From contig NZ_SLXH01000024.1 in the NCBI RefSeq assembly GCF_004341365.1, positions 1 to 64,000 on the forward strand: a stretch of DNA of 64,000 nt, read 5' to 3'. The first letter of the stretch is position 1. Each line of letters opens with the position of its first letter. Origin of the DNA: Simplicispira metamorpha. Lineage in GTDB: Bacteria > Pseudomonadota > Gammaproteobacteria > Burkholderiales > Burkholderiaceae_C. A program made the position numbers and the translations under genes. The notes under the pieces were generated by a model. The model did not search any database. It saw nothing but the letters and a program-made list of their open reading frames with translations, and had not been told where the DNA came from. This document shows, piece after piece, positions 20,477-29,502 of this stretch.

Positions 20477-20782
20477 ATGGCATTGATCTCTTCCATCGCC
20501 CAATCTGGCTTGCAGGCCGCCCAGCAAAGGCTGGGCGCCTCCGCGCACAACGTGGCCAATATGAACACCCCGGGTTTTCGCCGCGAGAGCGTGGCCCAGG
20601 AGGCCGCGCCCGGCAATGCGGGCGTGGCCACCACCGGCGTGCAGCGCGCGGGCACCGAGGGCGTGGCGCTGGAGCGCGAAGCCGTCGAACAGCTGTCGGC
20701 CACCTACGCTTTTGCGGCCAACCTGCAAACCATCAAGGTCGGCAACCAGATGCTGGGCACTTTGCTGGATACCACAGCCTGA
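20477..20782 (+). CDS. Small flagellar-rod-like protein (FlgB/FlgC/FlgG family N-terminus)
   Basis: A 101-residue protein with the rod-protein signature near the N-terminus (SGLQAAQQRL, then AHNVANMNTPGF) and a C-terminal helix (ATYAFAANLQTIKVGNQMLGTLLD) typical of the C-terminal motif of flagellar axial proteins. It is shorter than FlgB or FlgC and is not in a flagellar operon. Its stop codon (20780-20782) directly abuts the stop of the convergent wzt. It may be a stand-alone rod-like protein, as annotated in other Burkholderiales, with unclear function. Confidence 0.75.
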   Translation: MALISSIAQSGLQAAQQRLGASAHNVANMNTPGFRRESVAQEAAPGNAGVATTGVQRAGTEGVALEREAVEQLSATYAFAANLQTIKVGNQMLGTLLDTTA

Positions 20783-22147
20783 TCACTTCAAGGCAGACGC
20801 CTGTAGCGCAATGCCGCGCATGGGAATGCCGATCAACCCACTGGACACGTTGGACGCCACCGACTGGAATTGCATGGCCTCGTGCAGCCAGTGGTGCATC
20901 ACGTTGTCGTCCTGGGTGCCGTCTGCCACGGCCACCACCACGGTGTAGTCTCCACTGGGCAGGCGGGGCATCTCGAAGGTGAAGCATGCGGTGATGAGCT
21001 CACCCGCTTGGGCCCGCACCGGGTGCTCCATGAAGCTGATCCAGGTGTTGTCACCAAACAGCGCCTGGCCGGTGCGGTCTTTCACCATGAAACCCACAAT
21101 GGGCGATTGCAGCGGTGCGTGGCACAGGGCCTGCACCTCCAGCCGGACAGATTCTCCGCCCACCACCCAGGAAAACGCTGCACCATCCGGCGCCAGCAAT
21201 TGCACGGCACGGATGGTGCAGCCGCGCTGGCCCACACCTTCCTGGTGGGGATCAAAATCCCAGACACGGATGTCGTTGCGCAGGGTGCTGGCATTCCATA
21301 CATCCTGGCGCGCATCGCGCAACGAGCGCGCATCCGGCGCCGCAGCGGTGGCCGGTGCAGGCGGCGCCAGGGGGCGCACCGCCCCGTCGCTGGACAACAA
21401 AGCATCCAGGTAGGCCTGGCACACCGCCTTGGTCGCACCATCCTGGCGTATCTGGCCCGCATCCAGCCACACCACGCGCGAACACAGCGCCATGACCGCT
21501 TCCATATCGTGGCTGACAAAAATCACCGTGCCCGACTTCATGAACTGGCGCAGGTAGCGCATGCATTTCTGGGTGAAGAAAGCATCGCCCACGGACAGCG
21601 CCTCGTCGATGACCAGAATGTCTGCATCCACATGGGCGATCACGGCAAACGCCAGGCGCATGGCCATGCCACTCGAATAGCTCTTGAGCGGCTGCTCCAT
21701 AAAGTCGCCAATATCGGCAAAAGCGGCGATGGCATCGAACCGGGCCAGGGTCTGCTCGCGCGACAAGCCGAGCACTGCCGCGTTCAAAAAGACGTTCTCA
21801 CGCCCGGAAAACTCGGGGTTGAAGCCCGAGCCCAGTTCCAGCAACGCAGCCACCCGCCCTGTTACTTGGATGTGGCCCCGGCTGGGTTGCAGGGTGCCGC
21901 ACAGCAGCTGCAGCAGGGTGGATTTGCCCGAACCATTGCGCCCGATGATGCCCACGGTTTCGCCTTGGGCAATGCGCACAGAGACATCCTGCAAGGCGTG
22001 GAACTCCCGGTACCGGGTAGCCTGGCGCAACCCGAGTTTGCGGCACCAGAAACTGCTGAACATCTGCCACAGACGGTCTATCGGTCGCGCGTACAAGGGG
22101 TAGGCTTTGCCCACCTGGCTCACCTCCACCACCACGTCAGAGGACAT
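20783..22147 (-). CDS. wzt: O-polysaccharide ABC exporter, ATPase with C-terminal glycan-binding domain
   Basis: A 454-residue ABC ATPase. Walker A is GRNGSGKST (69-77), the signature is YSSGMAMRL, and Walker B is ILVIDEALSVGD. The first 40 residues are the Wzt/TagH-type gate region. After the ATPase (to about 250) comes a linker and a beta-sandwich domain (about 290-450) like the Wzt C-terminal domain that binds the capped end of the O-chain in E. coli O8/O9a. ATG 22147 overlaps the wzm stop by 11 bases. It is the last gene of the phosphoramidate-type operon. Confidence 0.88.
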   Translation of the reverse strand: MSSDVVVEVSQVGKAYPLYARPIDRLWQMFSSFWCRKLGLRQATRYREFHALQDVSVRIAQGETVGIIGRNGSGKSTLLQLLCGTLQPSRGHIQVTGRVAALLELGSGFNPEFSGRENVFLNAAVLGLSREQTLARFDAIAAFADIGDFMEQPLKSYSSGMAMRLAFAVIAHVDADILVIDEALSVGDAFFTQKCMRYLRQFMKSGTVIFVSHDMEAVMALCSRVVWLDAGQIRQDGATKAVCQAYLDALLSSDGAVRPLAPPAPATAAAPDARSLRDARQDVWNASTLRNDIRVWDFDPHQEGVGQRGCTIRAVQLLAPDGAAFSWVVGGESVRLEVQALCHAPLQSPIVGFMVKDRTGQALFGDNTWISFMEHPVRAQAGELITACFTFEMPRLPSGDYTVVVAVADGTQDDNVMHHWLHEAMQFQSVASNVSSGLIGIPMRGIALQASALK

Positions 22148-22964
22148 CGGCAAACCCCCGCTTGGTCAGCTGAAACCAGACATACCCCGCCCACGCTGCC
22201 AGCAGGGCCAGTGCGGTGTATATGCCCAGCCCCGTCCAGTCCGGCATTTGCCCTGCCAGCAGCACCGCCCGGGACTGCTCAATGATGAAGGTCAGCGGGT
22301 TCAGGCCCAGCCACTGCCGGAAGGGCGCGGGCACGGCCTCCTGGGCATAAAAAACCGGTGACAAAAACATCAGCACCGTGGTGAATGGCCCCACCACGGC
22401 AGCAATATCCCGCATGAACACCCCCAGCGCTGCGATAAACCACGCCGCCCCCAGCGCCACCAGCACCAGCGGCGCCATCACCACTGGCAGCCACAGCGCC
22501 GATACCGGCAAACCGCCCGTCAGCCACCACTGGGCAGCCACCAGCACCAGCACACTGACCAGCCACTGGAAAACGCCCACGCAGACCGTGACGGCAGGCA
22601 AAACCTCCAGCGGAAACACGACACGTTTCACATAATTCTGGTGGGCCAAAATCAGCCCCGGAGCGCGTTGGATGACCTCGGCAAAAAAGCCATGCACACA
22701 CAAGCCAATGAAAATGACCAGCGCAAAGTGCGTTGTCGATTGCGGCAACGCCCCCCAGCGGCTGGGAAACACCACCGAGAACACGAAGGTGTACACCAGC
22801 AACATCAGCAGCGGTGTCAGCAACGACCAGGCCAAGCCCAACACCGAGCCCCGGTAACGCTGGGCAATATCGCGCCACACCAGCTGGCGCAACAAATCAC
22901 GGTGTTGCCACAGCGACCGCACCAGGCAGACAGGCGACAGTGCCCGGGTGCTGCTGCCGGTCAT
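22137..22964 (-). CDS. wzm: O-polysaccharide ABC exporter, permease
   Basis: A 275-residue ABC-2 type permease with six hydrophobic spans and an N-terminal amphipathic helix region (LVWRDIAQRYRGSVLG) that is characteristic of Wzm/TagG/KpsM proteins. With Wzt it moves undecaprenyl-linked polysaccharide to the periplasmic face. ATG 22964 overlaps the stop of the sulfotransferase-like gene (ATGA), and the end overlaps wzt, so the exporter is translated with the donor-synthesis genes. Confidence 0.88.
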   Translation of the reverse strand: MTGSSTRALSPVCLVRSLWQHRDLLRQLVWRDIAQRYRGSVLGLAWSLLTPLLMLLVYTFVFSVVFPSRWGALPQSTTHFALVIFIGLCVHGFFAEVIQRAPGLILAHQNYVKRVVFPLEVLPAVTVCVGVFQWLVSVLVLVAAQWWLTGGLPVSALWLPVVMAPLVLVALGAAWFIAALGVFMRDIAAVVGPFTTVLMFLSPVFYAQEAVPAPFRQWLGLNPLTFIIEQSRAVLLAGQMPDWTGLGIYTALALLAAWAGYVWFQLTKRGFADVL

Positions 22965-23893
22965 GTGCTGGCCCGCCTTGCCGCATTGATGGGTTGCAAG
23001 GCAGATGTCCACGCACCGCGCTGCTGCGGACCGTCGGCGCCACGCCAGGCCAGGAACTCCACCAGGTTGCAAACCGGTGCAGGCGCGCCCGTCTCCTGTA
23101 ACGGGGCATAGCCCAAAAAATGGAGTAGCGGCAACCACTCAGTCCCCATGGCGCGGTACCAGCTGCGGGGCCAGGTGCCCTCCCACTCCAGCACCGCCCC
23201 CCTGCGGTTGAACTGGCGGGACTGGGCATCGTCCAGGGCCAGCGCCTGTTCGATGGCTTGCAGGCGGGACACATCCGAGGCGGCACAAGCCTGCTGCAAA
23301 GCCTCGGTGCATGCATCAACACCGATCCAGCGCACCACGGTGGCCAGACTTTCTACCGGCCGTTTTTTCCAGTCTTCAAAGCGCAGTACCAGCACCTGTT
23401 CGGGGCAGGCCTGCGCCACGGCTTGCCAGGCCCGCAGGTGCAGCCAGAGCATGTCCACCACAGAAACCGGCCCGCCCAGAAAAGGGCTGCGCAAAAACTC
23501 CGGCAGATCAATGGCAGGGCTGAGTCCCTCGTTGCGCTGGTGGCGCCGCCACTCGGAATACAGGGCATCGCGCGGATCGCGCACCATCCAAACGGTGCGT
23601 TGGTTCGGTGCCAGCTGCCAGGGGAAAGCGTGGGTAAAGCGGGGACGCACCCCCTGCACGAAATGGAACTCACGCCCTGGCCACAGACTGGCCAAAGTCT
23701 GGCGCCAGGGCCCATGCATGGCGGCATAGCGCGAAACCCCATCGCCCACGTCCTGCCACTCTGCTGCGGTCTCAAAACCCCACAGGTGGGGCAGTGGCAC
23801 CTGCAACTCCAGCAAGGCATTGGCCAGCCAGGCAGCGCCGCAGGGAAACTGGGGAGACACCACATCCACGGTGTACGCGCACGCCTCGGTCAT
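22961..23893 (-). CDS. Sulfotransferase-fold protein, candidate phosphoramidate transferase
   Basis: A 310-residue P-loop protein of the PAPS-dependent sulfotransferase fold. The 3'-phosphate-binding loop is canonical (VRDPRDALYSEW, about residues 103-114). The 5'-phosphosulfate loop is altered: PCGAAWL replaces the usual PKSGTTWL (about residues 17-23). It overlaps the APS-kinase-like gene upstream and wzm downstream by ATGA. In a plain reading it would sulfate a glycan with PAPS. In this operon the upstream kinase probably makes 3'-phospho-cytidine diphosphoramidate, a close structural analogue of PAPS, so I infer transfer of phosphoramidate to the O-chain. Fold is well supported, donor is inference. 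Confidence 0.72.
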   Translation of the reverse strand: MTEACAYTVDVVSPQFPCGAAWLANALLELQVPLPHLWGFETAAEWQDVGDGVSRYAAMHGPWRQTLASLWPGREFHFVQGVRPRFTHAFPWQLAPNQRTVWMVRDPRDALYSEWRRHQRNEGLSPAIDLPEFLRSPFLGGPVSVVDMLWLHLRAWQAVAQACPEQVLVLRFEDWKKRPVESLATVVRWIGVDACTEALQQACAASDVSRLQAIEQALALDDAQSRQFNRRGAVLEWEGTWPRSWYRAMGTEWLPLLHFLGYAPLQETGAPAPVCNLVEFLAWRGADGPQQRGAWTSALQPINAARRAST

Positions 23894-24450
23894 GTGCCCC
23901 TCCGCTGTGGTGCGCGCAGGTCTTGCCACAGCTGGAGCACACGCTCGCAATGCACCGCCATCTGGGCCTGCTCGAACGACTGCTGTAACACCAGCTCGGG
24001 CTGCACCGGGAATTCGGGTGCAATGTCCACACCCACCACCGGAGAGCCGGCACCGGCATACAGCTGCGGCTTGCGCTGCCGGAGCACGGCCAGATCGGCC
24101 AGAAGCACCACCTCGGCGTAGGGCGCAGGGCCAGCGCGGCTCCACGATTGCACGGCATGCAGCAGCGAAATGGTGGCAACCACCACCGGCACCCCCTGCA
24201 TGGCGGCCAGCCGGGCCAGGCGGGCCATGCGCCAGGCCCGCATCTGGCGCAGGGGCGCATCGTGCAGGCAGGCCTGCTCTGGCGGCTCCAGGGCGTTGCG
24301 CACCCCATCACCATCCAGAAGCAAAGGGTGCTCCCCCTGCCCGCGCAGGGCCGCCACCACCGCGCGGGCCAAAGTGGTTTTCCCCACCCCCGACAAGCCA
24401 GTGATCCAAAGTATGGGGGCCGACCCCGGCGCGTCAGACACGAAAGTCAT
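23890..24450 (-). CDS. APS-kinase-like kinase (candidate cytidine diphosphoramidate 3'-kinase)
   Basis: A 186-residue P-loop kinase. Walker A is GLSGVGKT (18-25), followed by LDGDGVR (45-51), close to the LDGDNVR of CysC but with Asn changed to Gly, and a later KPQLYAGAG and DIAPEFPVQPELVL resembling the APS-kinase C-terminal region. In C. jejuni the CysC-like Cj1415 phosphorylates the 3'-hydroxyl of cytidine diphosphoramidate rather than APS. The same set of neighbours here supports that role. It overlaps the nucleotidyltransferase by 17 bases and the transferase by 4. Ordinary APS kinase is the alternative, but no ATP sulfurylase gene is present. Confidence 0.72.
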   Translation of the reverse strand: MTFVSDAPGSAPILWITGLSGVGKTTLARAVVAALRGQGEHPLLLDGDGVRNALEPPEQACLHDAPLRQMRAWRMARLARLAAMQGVPVVVATISLLHAVQSWSRAGPAPYAEVVLLADLAVLRQRKPQLYAGAGSPVVGVDIAPEFPVQPELVLQQSFEQAQMAVHCERVLQLWQDLRAPQRRGT

Positions 24451-25210
24451 GGGAGAACTCCGGCGCCAGCAAGGCACGCTCCACAGCCGCCACGTCGTTC
24501 TGCGAATCGATCTCGACCCAGCCACCCGGCACATCGACTGCGTGCAACGTGCCACCGCCCGTGACAAAAGCCGACAACAAGCCTGTCATGTCCAGGCGAT
24601 CTACCGCTGCCTCACCACGGTCAGCGGCGATGTGGTGGATGCGCTGCTGCAGCTGCCCCCACCCCTGTGGCGTCAGGCGCAACAGCCCCATGAACTGCGC
24701 CTGGACTTCTTCCAGGCTGCGGGGCCGTTGGCCTATGGACAGAATGCGGCGCCCATCCCGCACGAGCGTTTCCGCATCCTCCAGCGGATTGGCGAATCGG
24801 CGGCTCCACAGCGCCAGCCAGCAGGTATCCACGGGCACAACCACATCGTTTGGCGATTCCCCCAAAGCAGCCGACAGCGCCCGGGCCCCATAAGCACCAT
24901 CCCCATAGACCACCAGGGTGGGAGCCTGCTGCAACCAATCAGCGGCCAGCATGAGCGAGCGCACCATATTCGTCTGCGCCCAGCGGGGATGCACGCGCAA
25001 CACATCACACCACGGCTGCAAGGCGGTGGCCTGCCAGCCGCCAATGACCAACACTTTGGTGATGCCGCTGGCCTTCAAGGCCTGCAACGTCCATTCCAGA
25101 ATGGGGCGCCCTGCCAAGGGGTGCAGGCATTTGGGCTGGTCGTCCGTAAAGTGGCCCATGCGACTGCCGCGCCCTGCGGCCAGCACCACGGCTTGTTGGG
25201 GGCGGTTCAT
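24434..25210 (-). CDS. Nucleotidyltransferase (candidate CTP:phosphoglutamine cytidylyltransferase)
   Basis: A 258-residue NTP-transferase with the signature LAAGRGSRM (10-18), K27 in QPKCL and GRPILEW, followed by the metal-binding VVYGDGAYG region. Sugar-1-phosphate nucleotidyltransferases share this fold. In the Campylobacter phosphoramidate pathway the equivalent enzyme (Cj1416) couples CTP with L-glutamine phosphate to give CDP-L-glutamine. The start overlaps the methyltransferase stop (TGATG), so translation is coupled. The substrate assignment rests on the operon, not on residues that I can identify. Confidence 0.75.
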   Translation of the reverse strand: MNRPQQAVVLAAGRGSRMGHFTDDQPKCLHPLAGRPILEWTLQALKASGITKVLVIGGWQATALQPWCDVLRVHPRWAQTNMVRSLMLAADWLQQAPTLVVYGDGAYGARALSAALGESPNDVVVPVDTCWLALWSRRFANPLEDAETLVRDGRRILSIGQRPRSLEEVQAQFMGLLRLTPQGWGQLQQRIHHIAADRGEAAVDRLDMTGLLSAFVTGGGTLHAVDVPGGWVEIDSQNDVAAVERALLAPEFSHDFRV

Positions 25211-25968
25211 CACAGGGGCTTGCGTTGTGCGGTCCATAAGCGAGTGAAATAAGGAATACGCAACGCAGAAGATGTGGCCACCAGGCTGCGAATGTCTTGG
25301 AGGATGTAGGGCAGCCGGGTACCGGCCTGCCGTTGCAACGTGGCATGCGACTTCCAGGCCATCATCCAGTCGTCTGCATCCACCTCGACCACAAACCGCT
25401 GCTCGGCAGCGTCGATGTGGGAGAAGGCGCCGTGGCCCATTACCGAGTCTTGCGGAGAGACGCGGCGCTGCCCATAGTCGTAGCCGGGAAGATGGTGGCG
25501 AATCAGGGCTTCCACCTCGCGCTGCAAGGGATCATCGAGGTCGCGGTGGTTCCACAGTGCCAGCCAGTACCCACCGGGGGCCAAGACCCTGGCGCACTCA
25601 TCCAGTGCCTGCTGTGCAGGCAGCACGTTGAAGGATGAGCCGTAAGCCACCAGACGCACCGCACCGGCAGCCAGGGGCAAGGCTTCACCACGGCAGGCCA
25701 GCCATTGCGCACGCCGCAGCGCCGGTTTGGCCAATGCCACCGTCCGCATGCTGGTATTGGGCTCGCTGGCCAGCACTTGCAGGCCGTGGCCACACAGCAG
25801 CCCGGTCAGTTTGCCGGTGCCCGCACCCACTTCCAGCGCCCACGCTCCGGGCGGCAAACCCAGGCGCTGCAAAGTCTGCTCGACCAACCCTGCGTGGTAA
25901 TCAGCACGCAAGTCGTAAGTGGAGGCCAGGCGGGTGTAGTCCCAGTCCAAAGCATCAGCAGCCGTCAT
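25210..25968 (-). CDS. SAM-dependent methyltransferase (candidate phosphoramidate O-methylase)
   Basis: A 252-residue class I methyltransferase: motif I LEVGAGTG (45-52), an acidic residue after the next strand (SEPNTSM), and a motif IV/post region around VRLVAYGSSFNVL and VLAPGGYWLALWNHRD. Small-molecule methylases of this shape include the Campylobacter Cj1419/Cj1420 proteins linked to the O-methyl group of MeOPN. The ATG follows the amidotransferase stop directly. Only one such gene is present here. Confidence 0.75.
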   Translation of the reverse strand: MTAADALDWDYTRLASTYDLRADYHAGLVEQTLQRLGLPPGAWALEVGAGTGKLTGLLCGHGLQVLASEPNTSMRTVALAKPALRRAQWLACRGEALPLAAGAVRLVAYGSSFNVLPAQQALDECARVLAPGGYWLALWNHRDLDDPLQREVEALIRHHLPGYDYGQRRVSPQDSVMGHGAFSHIDAAEQRFVVEVDADDWMMAWKSHATLQRQAGTRLPYILQDIRSLVATSSALRIPYFTRLWTAQRKPL

Positions 25969-26601
25969 TCATTCCTCACAAGTTGGGATGTTGTTTTCTA
26001 TCCAGCACCACATGGCATCGACATCGCCCTGGGGGCGCTCGGGGTGCCACATCATGCCCAGCCAAGGCAAGTGCATGTGCTGCATTGCTTCCACATGGCC
26101 GTCCGGTGCGTGGGCCAGCGCCGTCCAGCCCGGCATCAGCCCGGACGGCACCCAGTGGTGCCAGGAGTTCAGCGGGACAGGCTCGTGCACACCACAACGC
26201 ACGGTGTGCAGCGCAGCGACGTGCCCCGGCTGCCGAACCAGGCGGCCACCCGCCGCCACATGCAGCAACTGCATGCCCCTACAGACCCCGACGACCGGCA
26301 GGTGCGCACTGCGCGCATAAGCCAGCAAGGCGTGCTCTACCGCATCACGCAGCGGTGAAGTGCCTACGTCTTCTCCGCCGCTGAATAACAGCAAATCGAT
26401 ACCCCACTCCTGCACATGGCGCACGGCACGGGACGGGTCGGCAAAATTCGGCACCGCCAGAAAGCGGCATCGGGGCCAGCGTTCGCAAAACCAGTCAGAC
26501 CAAGCGGCATCCAGGGCATCGCGCGCCGGATGGTGGGCGCTGGCGGGTATGCGCCGCTGGGTAATACCGATGCGCAGAGCCTGCCGAATCACTCGAACCA
26601 T
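25969..26601 (-). CDS. Class I glutamine amidotransferase (candidate gamma-glutamyl-CDP-amidate hydrolase)
   Basis: A 210-residue amidotransferase-fold hydrolase with nucleophile C107 in GVCRGMQLL and the His-Glu pair H186/E188 in WHPER. LLLFSGGEDVG (about 71-80) is the oxyanion-strand region usual in peptidase C26 proteins. Cj1417 of C. jejuni, of the same family, cleaves CDP-L-glutamine to glutamate and cytidine diphosphoramidate. The start lies within the end of the kinase gene (13-base overlap), implying equal expression. General gamma-glutamyl hydrolase is the alternative. Confidence 0.78.
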   Translation of the reverse strand: MVRVIRQALRIGITQRRIPASAHHPARDALDAAWSDWFCERWPRCRFLAVPNFADPSRAVRHVQEWGIDLLLFSGGEDVGTSPLRDAVEHALLAYARSAHLPVVGVCRGMQLLHVAAGGRLVRQPGHVAALHTVRCGVHEPVPLNSWHHWVPSGLMPGWTALAHAPDGHVEAMQHMHLPWLGMMWHPERPQGDVDAMWCWIENNIPTCEE

Positions 26602-28898
26602 ACGCTTTGGGTGCCAGGATCAATGGTGGCCGAGGCAGCCGACAGCGCCCGCGCATACACCGCAGAACCACAGCCAATGGCTGCGGCCAGGCCAAACTCG
26701 GCGCACCGGATGGCCATGTGTGAATTGGCACCACCCCACTGCGTCATCAAGCCCACAATGCCGTGGTCAAACAGCCAGTCAAAACCGGGGTCGGCCTGGC
26801 TGACGAGCACGATGGCACCGTGCAGTGCGGCGCGGGGCCGGGGCTGCTGGTCGTTCAGGACGATCAATGGGCCGCGCGCCACACGGGTGCCGACAAAGTT
26901 GGGCAACGCGCCCAGGCTGTCTGCCACATACCGATCCTGCTGCGCCCGCAGCACCGGGCCGGTGATCAAGCCCGCTTGCCACTGGTGCTCGGCCTTGGCC
27001 TGCTCTGCGCAGCGTGCCCAATGCAGCGCACGGGCAGCAGGGGCCATGGCACGGCCCTGGCGCCACTGGGCCAGCGTGAGCCATGACATCTGCTCTCTGT
27101 CCAGCCCCACTGCCACAGCCTGCACAGCGATGGCCTCCAACGCCGCCGACAGGTGCCGACTGAACACAAACTTGCCCCACTCACGGGAACTGGCCGCCAG
27201 CTGCACCCAGTGCACCCACGGCCCGGCGCCAAACGGCAAGCCCACCTCCGCAGCCAGGGCTTCCAACGCCCGCACTTCCTGCGGTACCAGGGAAAACGCC
27301 TGCGCCCTGTGCGCTGCCCCGTGCGCGCTGGCTTCCCGGTGGGCATCGGCAGACCACGTAGGCTGGGTGATATCGAAAGTGCCTGGACGCAAATGGCCGA
27401 CCGCTACTGCGGGGTGGGCCGCATGGGTGGGCGAACTGCGTGCAGCAGCACGCAACGCCAACGCCCGGTCGGGCGACAGTGCGCCCCGCTGCACGGCAGA
27501 GCGCAGTTGGGCCTCTGCGGCAAACGCTATCCGCGCAATGGCAGCAAACGCTGCGGTGCCATGTCGGCAACGCTGTAGCAGGCGGGAGGCGGTCTGCCCC
27601 GCCAGTTCGTCACGCTCCAGGGCCGCAATGCCCGCGTTCAGTGACGCCAGCGGTGCGGACGGACGCATGTCCATCACGCGTGCGGTCAGCACCCCCAGGG
27701 CGGCCTCCCACTGTGCTGCGGCCTGCGGCGATAGCCCCGGCACGGCCACGTGGCCCAGGGTGCCGGGTGGTGCGAAATCCCGCACCGTGCGAAAAACCTG
27801 AAACTCCACCTTGTCGTGCAACGCTGGCTCCCTGTCCAGCCAAGACAACCAGTGGTTGACGAGCACCTGCCGGGTGCTGGGTGGCAACCGGGCTGGCAGC
27901 AGCGAATTGGCACTGCGGCGCACATCGACAAAAGGCCGACCCTGCAAGACCTGTAGCAGTCCCACGTTCTTCTGCGGGACGGGTGCATAGCCCAGTCCGG
28001 CACGGGCCTGCCACCAGACACCGTCGGCAATCAAGGCCTGGAACAGTGACAGCGCCAGCGGCCGGGGGTGGGCACCAATCAGCTCGGCAGGATTCCAGTC
28101 GGACATCAGCGACAACACCGTGCGGTCTCCGGCCACCTGCGCCAACGCATCCGCCTGCTGGAGAAACTCCAGGGAGGGCAAGCGGACAGGCAAACGCACG
28201 CTCTGGGCTGCGGGCCAGTGGCGCGCAGTGGCCAATGGCCGCACCTGCAACAGTTGCGCCTGCAACGCATCCGATCCAGAAGCGGTCAACGCAAACTCCA
28301 TCTCCAGGGGCACAGGCCCGACGAGGCCCTCGACCTCGCTGAGCAGCGCCAAAGCGGCACGCTCTGCGCCACCCAGCGCCGGCATGGCCACGGACAGACT
28401 GTCGCGTGCCACCGCCACTTGCCGACCCGTAGCACGGCCCCCCGTCACCGCAGCCGTGTCATCGTGTGCCAACTCAATGCAGTACCAGGGCGCGCCGTCG
28501 GCAATCCGGTGCGAAGAGGCCACCCCCACAAAGCGAGGCGCAGACACCATCTGCTGCACAAGAAGGTGGTCTTGCGGGTGGCCGGGCATGCTCTGCGCAA
28601 CGCGATCCATGGCCTGCGCCAAACCATCGGGCGCCACATTCAGCACCGTGCAAAACTCGCCAGCCCGGCTGGCGTGCATCTGATCTTCCACCTGGGCATC
28701 GCTGCGCACTGCCACCAATTGGCCAGAAAACAGGCGATGGCAGCGTACCAACACCTCATCAGGCTGCGCGTGCCATTGCGCCACAGACACCCTGAGGAAC
28801 ACAGGAACCTGCGCAGACCGAATCCGGGTGCTTAACCAATGCAGAGAAGCGCCTTTGCCTACAGGACAAGGCGGCGCGGGTGCGCAAGATGAATCCAT
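26589..28898 (-). CDS. PEP-synthase-like phosphotransferase (candidate L-glutamine kinase)
   Basis: A 769-residue protein with an N-terminal ATP-grasp domain of the PPDK type (LVAVRSDAQVEDQM, SRAGEF, HLLVQQMV, then LEMEF...LQVRP by about residue 225), a long helical middle and a C-terminal mobile histidine domain with H727 in GGANSHMAIR. It ends right after the histidine domain, so it lacks the PEP/pyruvate TIM barrel of true PEP synthase. The same order is found in rifampin phosphotransferase and in C. jejuni L-glutamine kinase (Cj1418), which makes L-glutamine phosphate via a phosphohistidine. The neighbours favour the latter. It heads the eight-gene operon; no clear Shine-Dalgarno is seen. 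Confidence 0.75.
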   Translation of the reverse strand: MDSSCAPAPPCPVGKGASLHWLSTRIRSAQVPVFLRVSVAQWHAQPDEVLVRCHRLFSGQLVAVRSDAQVEDQMHASRAGEFCTVLNVAPDGLAQAMDRVAQSMPGHPQDHLLVQQMVSAPRFVGVASSHRIADGAPWYCIELAHDDTAAVTGGRATGRQVAVARDSLSVAMPALGGAERAALALLSEVEGLVGPVPLEMEFALTASGSDALQAQLLQVRPLATARHWPAAQSVRLPVRLPSLEFLQQADALAQVAGDRTVLSLMSDWNPAELIGAHPRPLALSLFQALIADGVWWQARAGLGYAPVPQKNVGLLQVLQGRPFVDVRRSANSLLPARLPPSTRQVLVNHWLSWLDREPALHDKVEFQVFRTVRDFAPPGTLGHVAVPGLSPQAAAQWEAALGVLTARVMDMRPSAPLASLNAGIAALERDELAGQTASRLLQRCRHGTAAFAAIARIAFAAEAQLRSAVQRGALSPDRALALRAAARSSPTHAAHPAVAVGHLRPGTFDITQPTWSADAHREASAHGAAHRAQAFSLVPQEVRALEALAAEVGLPFGAGPWVHWVQLAASSREWGKFVFSRHLSAALEAIAVQAVAVGLDREQMSWLTLAQWRQGRAMAPAARALHWARCAEQAKAEHQWQAGLITGPVLRAQQDRYVADSLGALPNFVGTRVARGPLIVLNDQQPRPRAALHGAIVLVSQADPGFDWLFDHGIVGLMTQWGGANSHMAIRCAEFGLAAAIGCGSAVYARALSAASATIDPGTQSVWFE

Positions 28899-29082
28899 GC
28901 TGAATGAAATACGATGAAACGCTGGCTGTGCCCAGTTTGCCTACGCCAGACACAACCCGAAAGACTGCGGGGCATGGCTGTCCGCCACGCCTGAAGCCGT
29001 TGACCCGGCTGAGGGCCACTATCGCACACCAGCCAGCGCTGGAACGCACTCTGCCCCAGCGTCGCATCCACGCCAGGCTGCG

Positions 29083-29334
29083 TTACGTTGCGGTCAACGG
29101 CGCGTCTTGCACCGCGTGCTTGCGCTGCGCCCAGCGCACCCAGGCTTTTTCATGGAAGAAAAACGCCACCGCCTGCACCGTCGGCTCCAGCAGGCTCAGC
29201 GTCAGCGAGGCCCACAGGTTGCCGGTCACGGCGTAGGCCACCAGCGCAGCCACGCAGACGTGGATCACGTAGTAGCTGGCCGTTTTCATCAACATGGTCT
29301 GGTTTTGCGCGGCGAGGTGGCGGATGCGGGACAT
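29083..29334 (-). CDS. DUF2061 membrane protein
   Basis: An 83-residue protein with two hydrophobic segments separated by a short loop (SYYVIHVCVAALVAYAV, then SLTLSLLEPTVQAVAFFF), and HEKAWVRW near the end, as in DUF2061 small membrane proteins. AGGAG lies 7 nt before ATG 29334. Function unknown. It is on the same strand as the phosphoramidate operon, 184 bp upstream of its first gene, and is probably separate from it. Confidence 0.78.
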   Translation of the reverse strand: MSRIRHLAAQNQTMLMKTASYYVIHVCVAALVAYAVTGNLWASLTLSLLEPTVQAVAFFFHEKAWVRWAQRKHAVQDAPLTAT

Positions 29335-29502
29335 GGCAGGCTCCTGAAGTTGCACGGATGGCCTGAAGCAGGCATGGGCAAATGCTAGTCATTCTCAACG
29401 CCATGCGCCAATCGATCCTGCCTAACAGCGCCATAGCCAGCGCCCGGCGCGGGCGCGCCAGCGCCCTGTCCAGCACACCGCCCACGCTGCACGGAAGCGC
29501 CC

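Follow-up and report, generated by a model that had tools for sequence, protein, structure and literature searches.

The stretch of DNA analysed here (the window) comprises positions 1 to 64,000 of contig NZ_SLXH01000024.1 of Simplicispira metamorpha (assembly GCF_004341365.1), and lies on contig C24 of a genome of 3.78 Mb that is split over 68 contigs. On its minus strand it carries a run of eight genes, transcribed from position 28898 to 20783, in which every junction is either an overlap of 4 to 28 nt or a direct abutment (Table 1). The positions of the open reading frames (ORFs) and of their start codons confirm this run as it had been described in a first-pass annotation made from the sequence alone, and the domain names of all eight proteins agree with Pfam and NCBIfam, the sulfotransferase-fold protein being named by Pfam only. 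Chance does not account for the arrangement, as the same eight genes occur in the same order in a Curvibacter metagenome-assembled genome (MAG; locus L034) and the same set occurs in a different order in genome G050 (locus L221).

Table 1. Genes of the minus-strand run and limits of the inserted segment (window coordinates).
Feature	Coordinates	Strand	Length (aa)	Junction with preceding gene	Family or basis
L-glutamine-kinase-type protein (phosphoenolpyruvate (PEP)-synthase-like, phosphohistidine His727)	26589..28898	-	769		NF004508
Class I glutamine-amidotransferase-type hydrolase	25969..26601	-	210	13-nt overlap with kinase	NF045546 (best family)
S-adenosylmethionine (SAM) methyltransferase	25210..25968	-	252	abuts hydrolase gene	Pfam Methyltransf_11
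Nucleotidyltransferase (MobA-like NTP_transf_3)	24434..25237	-	267	28-nt overlap with methyltransferase	PF12804, E 3.5e-19
Adenosine 5′-phosphosulfate (APS)-kinase-like P-loop kinase	23890..24450	-	186	17-nt overlap with nucleotidyltransferase	Pfam APS_kinase
Sulfotransferase-fold protein	22961..23893	-	310	4-nt overlap with APS-kinase-like gene	PF00685 (Sulfotransfer_1), E 4e-13
Wzm, ABC-2 permease	22137..22964	-	275	4-nt overlap with sulfotransferase-fold gene	PF01061, E 4e-23
Wzt, ATPase with C-terminal cap/carbohydrate-binding domain	20783..22147	-	454	11-nt overlap with Wzm	PF00005 + Wzt_C PF14524, E 2e-32
Inserted segment, limits at gene ends	20783..29082				flank comparison with four same-genus genomes

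The identification of the first five genes as a counterpart of the methyl-phosphoramidate donor set of Campylobacter is well supported by protein family assignments. In C. jejuni, Cj1415-Cj1418 convert glutamine, ATP and CTP into CDP-phosphoramidate 3′-phosphate (PMC11800397). As a comparison set we used genomes that pass the curated models, 4 of 120 Campylobacterales genomes passing the hydrolase model NF045546. The reference locus from this set, L121, passes NF004508, NF045546, NF004041 and NF058596 (O-methyl phosphoramidate transferase), and it contains homologues of all five window donor enzymes, with identities to the window proteins of 28% for the kinase, 27% for the hydrolase, 28% for the nucleotidyltransferase (E 2e-35) and 29% for the 3′-kinase. 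The window methyltransferase belongs to the same family as two methyltransferases of L121 (profile E-values of 4e-81 and 1e-85; 29% and 30% identity by BLASTP). Among the NCBIfam matches shown, neither copy of the nucleotidyltransferase has a specific model.

The window kinase scores 547.2 bits on NF004508, against a cut-off of 501, and is the sole match above that cut-off in its genome. This model bears the title "hypothetical protein" and is tied to the pathway through L121, a locus that passes NF045546 and NF058596 as well. When named genomes were searched with the kinase alignment, at least 574 relatives were returned among 590 stretches, and the best 80 loci by match to the window kinase were used in what follows. 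A purpose-built kinase profile gave 697-1121 bits for 81 family members (the 80 loci and the window) and 101 bits for the best control ORF outside the family; the control loci for this profile also included the window kinase itself (as L001) and a two-part family member, L014. His727 was found in all 86 aligned kinases, five of them from Campylobacterales, and K15, R65, E71, E201, Q218 and R220 were conserved in 85 or 86 of the 86. In the hydrolase, C107, H186 and E188 were conserved in all 77 aligned homologues.

It is conceivable, but in our estimation unlikely, that these enzymes make a related but different donor, with a nucleotide other than CDP, an unmethylated group or transfer of N-phosphoglutamyl, for a glycan, a protein or a lipid. 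The 27-30% identity of the donor proteins to the Campylobacterales set would allow for such a shift, as would the score of the hydrolase below its curated cut-off, whereas the catalytic residues of kinase and hydrolase are intact and the 3′-kinase and methyltransferase belong to the same families as their Campylobacterales counterparts.

The APS-kinase-like protein, encoded by the fifth gene, was placed in a quick tree whose 91 rows comprised 55 from kinase loci, four from Campylobacterales, 30 APS kinases from genomes of the same order, the CysC of the same genome (contig C53) and the window protein. It grouped with 53 of the 55 kinase-locus rows and all four Campylobacterales rows, apart from the 31 APS-kinase controls, with a Shimodaira-Hasegawa-like approximate likelihood ratio test (SH-aLRT) value of 92, under the 95 of a firm branch. 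The two kinase-locus rows that sided with the controls both came from L083. The first-pass annotation had proposed a Campylobacter-like donor set and had named two groupings that would speak against it, that of the first kinase with rifampin phosphotransferases and that of the CysC-like protein with ordinary APS kinases. Neither was found. Rifampin phosphotransferase or PEP synthase was rejected as the identity of the first gene, those models giving 28-30 bits against 547 on NF004508, so that the kinase is set apart by profile scores (these, and 697-1121 against at most 101) and not by a tree; the CysC-like protein lies on the opposite side of the tree from the 31 controls, the genome's own CysC among them. 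The proposed donor set is thereby supported.

The tree also bears on a quite different explanation, in which the APS-kinase-like protein makes 3′-phosphoadenosine 5′-phosphosulfate (PAPS), the sulfotransferase sulfates the exported glycan, and kinase, hydrolase and nucleotidyltransferase serve otherwise. Such a sulfation cassette would agree with the Pfam names APS_kinase and Sulfotransfer_1 and with the ordinary Lys/Arg-type sulfotransferases present in a few kinase loci (L104, L043 and L222), but not with the position of the APS-kinase-like protein among the kinase-locus proteins. On contig C53 the genome moreover encodes another APS kinase, which has a full score and next to which lies an Arg-type sulfotransferase (PRAGST), and the window sulfotransferase-fold protein has lost the sulfate-loop residue, as described below. 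Based on the tree and the lost loop residue we rejected sulfation, which we regard as highly improbable. The ordinary APS kinase/sulfotransferase pair on C53 (L131, genome G000, 8 kb) is accompanied by an ORF that, judged by eye, is recombinase-like.

The sulfotransferase-fold protein is likely the phosphoramidate transferase. Its AlphaFold 2 (AF2) model (predicted local distance difference test (pLDDT) score 77, predicted template modelling (pTM) score 0.76) matches SULT7A1 in complex with 3′-phosphoadenosine 5′-phosphate (PAP) (5x2b_D) with a Z of 16.0 and a root-mean-square deviation of 3.8 over 218 aligned residues, and the 50 Foldseek matches shown for the model are all sulfotransferases or the related retinol dehydratase. 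Sulfotransferase folds hold PAPS at two sites, one a 3′-phosphate motif containing Arg and Ser, the other a PKSGT-type 5′ loop in which the Lys contacts the sulfate. The window protein retains the former as RDPRDALYS, and its 5′-phosphosulfate loop reads QFPCGAAW, without Lys or Arg. We read this loop in 11 window-type proteins (those of the window, L034, L074, L075, L041, L221 and L223, and two each from L080 and L222). The Ser of the 3′-phosphate motif was present in 9 of the 11, and the loop position was Lys or Arg in none of them (Pro in six, Asn in three, Ala in one and His in one); the L221 and L223 proteins have an Arg two residues ahead of it. Among 31 control ORFs from 29 loci of the order, all 29 informative ones had Lys or Arg, the other two having no residue at the position. 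It is because the 3′-phosphate motif has been kept and the Lys/Arg of the sulfate loop has been lost that we read the protein as a phosphoramidate transferase: a donor with a 3′-phosphate and an amidate instead of sulfate would fit this pattern.

The transferase known from Campylobacter, NF058596/DUF2972, is present in L121 and L123 and had no match among the eight window proteins. A single-sequence AF2 model of DUF2972 was poor (pLDDT 37). Stretches resembling HGxG and RDPIS, which by eye look like sulfotransferase motifs, occur in DUF2972-type ORFs of Campylobacterales (L107:5127-6455, L121:3266-5101, L121:10395-11702 and L123:3202-5043).

We then considered how widely the pathway and the candidate transferase are distributed. 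Of the best 80 loci, 75 have the hydrolase within 6.5 kb of the kinase, 76 the nucleotidyltransferase, 52 the 3′-kinase, 25 the methyltransferase, 11 a Wzt-like ATPase and 3 Wzm; hydrolase and nucleotidyltransferase were both present in 49 of the 50 loci having at least 5 kb on both sides. The kinase loci come from many bacterial phyla and from two archaea (L091, a Euryarchaeota MAG, and L095, Natronomonas gomsonensis). Judging by these homologues, the donor pathway is widespread among bacteria and extends to archaea, which the first-pass annotation had not foreseen. In the sampled part of the order, 10 of 399 genomes passed the kinase model, and 3 of 399 genomes of the window's family had a kinase at E <= 1e-60. 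Within 18 kb around the other two family kinases there was no Wzm, sulfotransferase or Wzt beyond a weak cross-match to the kinase ORF, in line with the earlier suggestion that a set coupled to Wzm/Wzt is rare in this family.

The transferase itself was sought with a four-row profile in the 399 genomes of the order, with at most five candidates scored per genome. Twelve genomes had a match at E <= 1e-8, and long matches below 1e-40 were restricted to the genome of the window, G050 and G246. In G050 (L221) the gene order is wzm-wzt-sult-mt-mt-3′-kinase-mt-kinase-hydrolase-nucleotidyltransferase (sult, sulfotransferase-fold gene; mt, methyltransferase gene), with two more methyltransferases than in the window, and a 3.3-kb contig of G246 carries wzt-sult-3′-kinase. 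G295 had a weaker match, on the same contig as its kinase. The matches in the other eight genomes started no earlier than profile position 87, and none of these genomes had a kinase above the cut-off.

Comparison with other genomes also revealed that the eight genes are an insertion into the bacterial genome, a feature that had not been visible to the first-pass annotation. The operon is absent from all four other same-genus genomes sampled, where the flanking genes are adjacent, and window DNA between 20767 and 29090 had no match to these four genomes. The flanks are a flagellar-rod-domain gene ending at 20782 and a DUF2061 gene at 29083-29355, and in G655 the neighbour of the former is the gene that follows DUF2061. 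A search for direct repeats at the insertion edges found no word of 10-20 bases common to 20701-20900 and 28851-29150. In the Curvibacter MAG the eight genes lie amid unrelated genes for LysR regulators, TctC receptors, an amidase, a LigAB dioxygenase and a major facilitator superfamily (MFS) transporter, as well as transporter parts, HDOD and radical SAM proteins and ORFs without a family; no glycosyltransferase was found among the 18 ORFs scanned there, some of which overlap on opposite strands. As the same eight genes occur in two unrelated settings, the set seems to move as a unit, and in neither setting was a glycosyltransferase observed next to it. Glycosyltransferases and sugar enzymes adjoin L221.

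The last two genes encode an ATP-binding cassette (ABC) exporter, and the coupling of the donor set to Wzm/Wzt, which the first-pass annotation had described, is supported by the sequences, the Wzt bearing a Wzt_C domain. The window Wzt_C can be aligned to the Aquifex reader domain, in the ABC transporter of PDB 7k2t and 6o14 (E 7e-11 and 8e-11), with a Trp matched in HHW/YHW of the 7k2t alignment; we infer, with a residue count that is one off, that this may be the cap-contact Trp362 of PMC9445017. The C-terminal domain of Wzt is described as reading a modification at the non-reducing end, which in E. coli O9a is a methyl-phosphate that WbdD produces (PMC3482155) and in Aquifex a 3-O-methyl sugar (PMC9445017). 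A Wzt_C domain is present in the Wzt encoded beside the transferase in the window, L034, L221 and L223. Methyl-phosphoramidate is chemically close to methyl-phosphate. Given the co-occurrence of the transferase with a Wzt_C-bearing Wzt in three loci besides the window, the phosphorus-nitrogen (P-N) group may be an end cap that licenses export. The Wzt_C domains of window and L034 are 42% alike over 146 residues, and those of L221 and L223 barely match; the four differ too much for an argument from a shared ligand, and we dropped the idea that they form a matched set.

We tentatively propose, while holding it to be less than an even bet, that the transferase caps the non-reducing end of a host-made glycan with methyl-phosphoramidate, that growth of the chain then stops, and that Wzt_C reads the cap so that the chain is exported. 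On this view the eight genes would act as a transferable cap-and-export cassette, commandeering a glycan of the host to give the cell a new coat. The window-type proteins lacking the loop Lys/Arg would form a class of enzymes that transfer phosphoramidate, and this would account for the pathway's making a 3′-phosphate donor at all. Alternatively, the P-N group may decorate many repeat units of an O antigen or another ABC-exported polysaccharide in the manner of O-methyl phosphoramidate (MeOPN), with Wzt exporting the chain independently of the group. In the C. jejuni capsule, MeOPN is found on repeat-unit sugars (PMC11800397, PMC9561416), and the scarcity of window-type Wzm near the kinases (3 of 80) implies that P-N chemistry as such is independent of Wzm. 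Against such decoration stand the proximity of the transferase to Wzm/Wzt, or to a Wzt with Wzt_C, a domain reported as an end-modification reader in E. coli O9a and Aquifex (PMC3482155, PMC9445017), in the window, L034, L221 and L223, and the fact that the cassette brings no glycosyltransferase; we consider it less likely than not. The first-pass annotation had favoured a P-N-decorated, ABC-exported O antigen: the donor set (by NF004508 and the APS-kinase tree) and the coupling to a Wzt_C-bearing exporter hold, and decoration of an O antigen is plausible.

In the reading that we prefer, with a probability of roughly 0.64, the eight genes are an acquired cassette that would make a phosphoramidate donor, transfer its P-N group to a glycan and export the product. 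The reactions, the cytidine nucleotide, the acceptor, the cap, the P-N bond and the order of methylation are predictions from the gene content, protein families, predicted fold, loop-residue loss, insertion and co-occurrence observed in the sequences. The kinase would convert L-glutamine to N-phospho-glutamine, which the nucleotidyltransferase, as a CTP:phosphoglutamine cytidylyltransferase, would turn into CDP-glutamine. The hydrolase would act as a gamma-glutamyl-CDP-amidate hydrolase and free CDP-amidate, to which the APS-kinase-like enzyme, as a CDP-amidate 3′-kinase, would add a 3′-phosphate; the resulting 3′-phospho-CDP-amidate would be a PAPS look-alike. The sulfotransferase-fold protein would accept it instead of PAPS and move the P-N group to a cytoplasmic lipid-linked glycan, with the methyltransferase O-methylating the group before or after transfer. 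Wzm/Wzt would export the modified glycan, the C-terminal domain of Wzt acting as reader.

Several observations weigh against this preferred reading. The hydrolase scores 76.5 bits on NF045546, for which the cut-off is 250, though this is its best-scoring family (none of six other kinase-bearing genomes searched passed that cut-off either), and the APS-kinase-like protein scores 95 bits on NF004041, for which it is 127. The support for the APS-kinase split falls short of a firm branch, as given above, and five rows, that of the window among them, were flagged for their letter make-up. A window-type sulfotransferase lies within 6.5 kb of the kinase in just 5 of the 80 loci, no kinase exceeded the cut-off in the G246 genome, which is incomplete, and of the 10 genomes in the order that passed the kinase model, 7 had no match in the transferase search; from the first and last of these counts it follows that other transferases must exist. 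Profile comparison of the window sulfotransferase with DUF2972 did not support a shared ancestry (probability 1-6% over 18-24 columns). The eight cassette genes include no glycosyltransferase, and the rest of the genome was not searched for glycosyltransferases or an O-antigen ligase.

The loop evidence is likewise qualified. A Lys-type sequence seeded the profile that collected the loop controls, and the loops of the window-type proteins could not be aligned to it. Over the kinase, Campylobacterales and later stretches the control profile matched 19 ORFs, with further sulfotransferases besides the window-type set. Among these the Lys/Arg type is clear in L104 (beside the kinase), L043 (one ORF) and L222 (its third sulfotransferase ORF) and weak in L110 and L097; L086 has a Trp at the loop position, and the loops of L106 and of the second L043 ORF were unreadable in the control-profile alignment. 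The ORFs L104:1175-2065 and L043:731-2101 lie beside, or a few kb from, glutamine-kinase genes. Given the Lys/Arg-type ORFs in L104, L043 and L222, the idea that loss of the loop residue characterizes all sulfotransferases of kinase loci was not upheld; the loss marks the window-type subfamily, and there may be P-N loci that work with a Lys/Arg-type enzyme or that sulfate as well. For this reason we hold the cassette and end-cap readings a little less firmly, and repeat-unit decoration and sulfation slightly more firmly, than we otherwise would.

The proposed system has parts in common with several known ones. With the C. jejuni MeOPN capsule pathway (Cj1415-Cj1418, Cj1419/1420 and Cj1421/1422) it shares, via L121, five donor enzyme families in a tight cluster. 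It differs in having a transferase with a sulfotransferase fold and without a DUF2972 match, a methyltransferase gene in the middle of the donor set (with 27-30% identity to L121 across the set), and a Wzm/Wzt exporter with Wzt_C, which would set it apart from the Campylobacter capsule exporter. WbdD/Wzt export in E. coli O9a and Aquifex aeolicus likewise employs an ABC transporter with a C-terminal reader domain (PMC3482155, PMC9445017) and, if our reading is correct, a phosphorus-and-methyl modification encoded beside the transporter. WbdD, however, is a single kinase-methyltransferase acting on the sugar, whereas in the window four enzymes would build a P-N nucleotide donor and the role as a cap is proposed. 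The window protein resembles PAPS-dependent cytosolic-type sulfotransferases (PF00685; SULT7A1, SULT1E1) in predicted fold and 3′-phosphate motif and differs from them in lacking the basic residue of the 5′-phosphosulfate loop. Finally, the phosphoramide of the Xanthomonas campestris lipooligosaccharide is also a P-N group on a Gram-negative lipid-linked glycan; it is on a core mannose and not on an exported polymer (PMC8042644).

According to a 2022 review, the glutamine kinase is specific to C. jejuni (PMC9561416), and a 2019 review states that the modified sugar residues have thus far been identified in Campylobacter alone (PMC6429109). The literature searched, in which subscription papers were mostly not covered, contained neither a P-N group on an exported O antigen nor an assignment of a sulfotransferase fold. 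Glycan-borne P-N groups have been presented as peculiar to Campylobacter, yet the genes in question occur across many bacterial phyla and also in archaea. The compact window set offers a testable answer on the type of protein that transfers the phosphoramidate and on the reason for a 3′-phosphate in the donor, and the end cap, if true, would be a new chemical signal among those that control ABC-dependent glycan export.

Variants of the pathway were seen among the kinase loci. In 13 of the 80 (L085, L086, L095, L100, L101, L102, L103, L106, L108, L109, L111, L112 and L113) the kinase ORF also matches the nucleotidyltransferase profile, and none of these 13 has a 3′-kinase or methyltransferase within 6.5 kb, perhaps representing a second form of the pathway without 3′-phosphorylation and methylation. 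The extra stretch of the L085 kinase ORF, the one ORF of this kind that was scanned, had no Pfam name at 1e-4. In Helicobacter marmotae, one ORF (L098:9464-12343) holds both a 3′-kinase-like domain and the glutamine kinase. An ORF of 898 aa on the minus strand of L222 (11755-14448) combines a sulfotransferase domain, with His at the loop position, with a glycerophosphotransferase-type domain, and it adjoins the nucleotidyltransferase of a P-N cluster.

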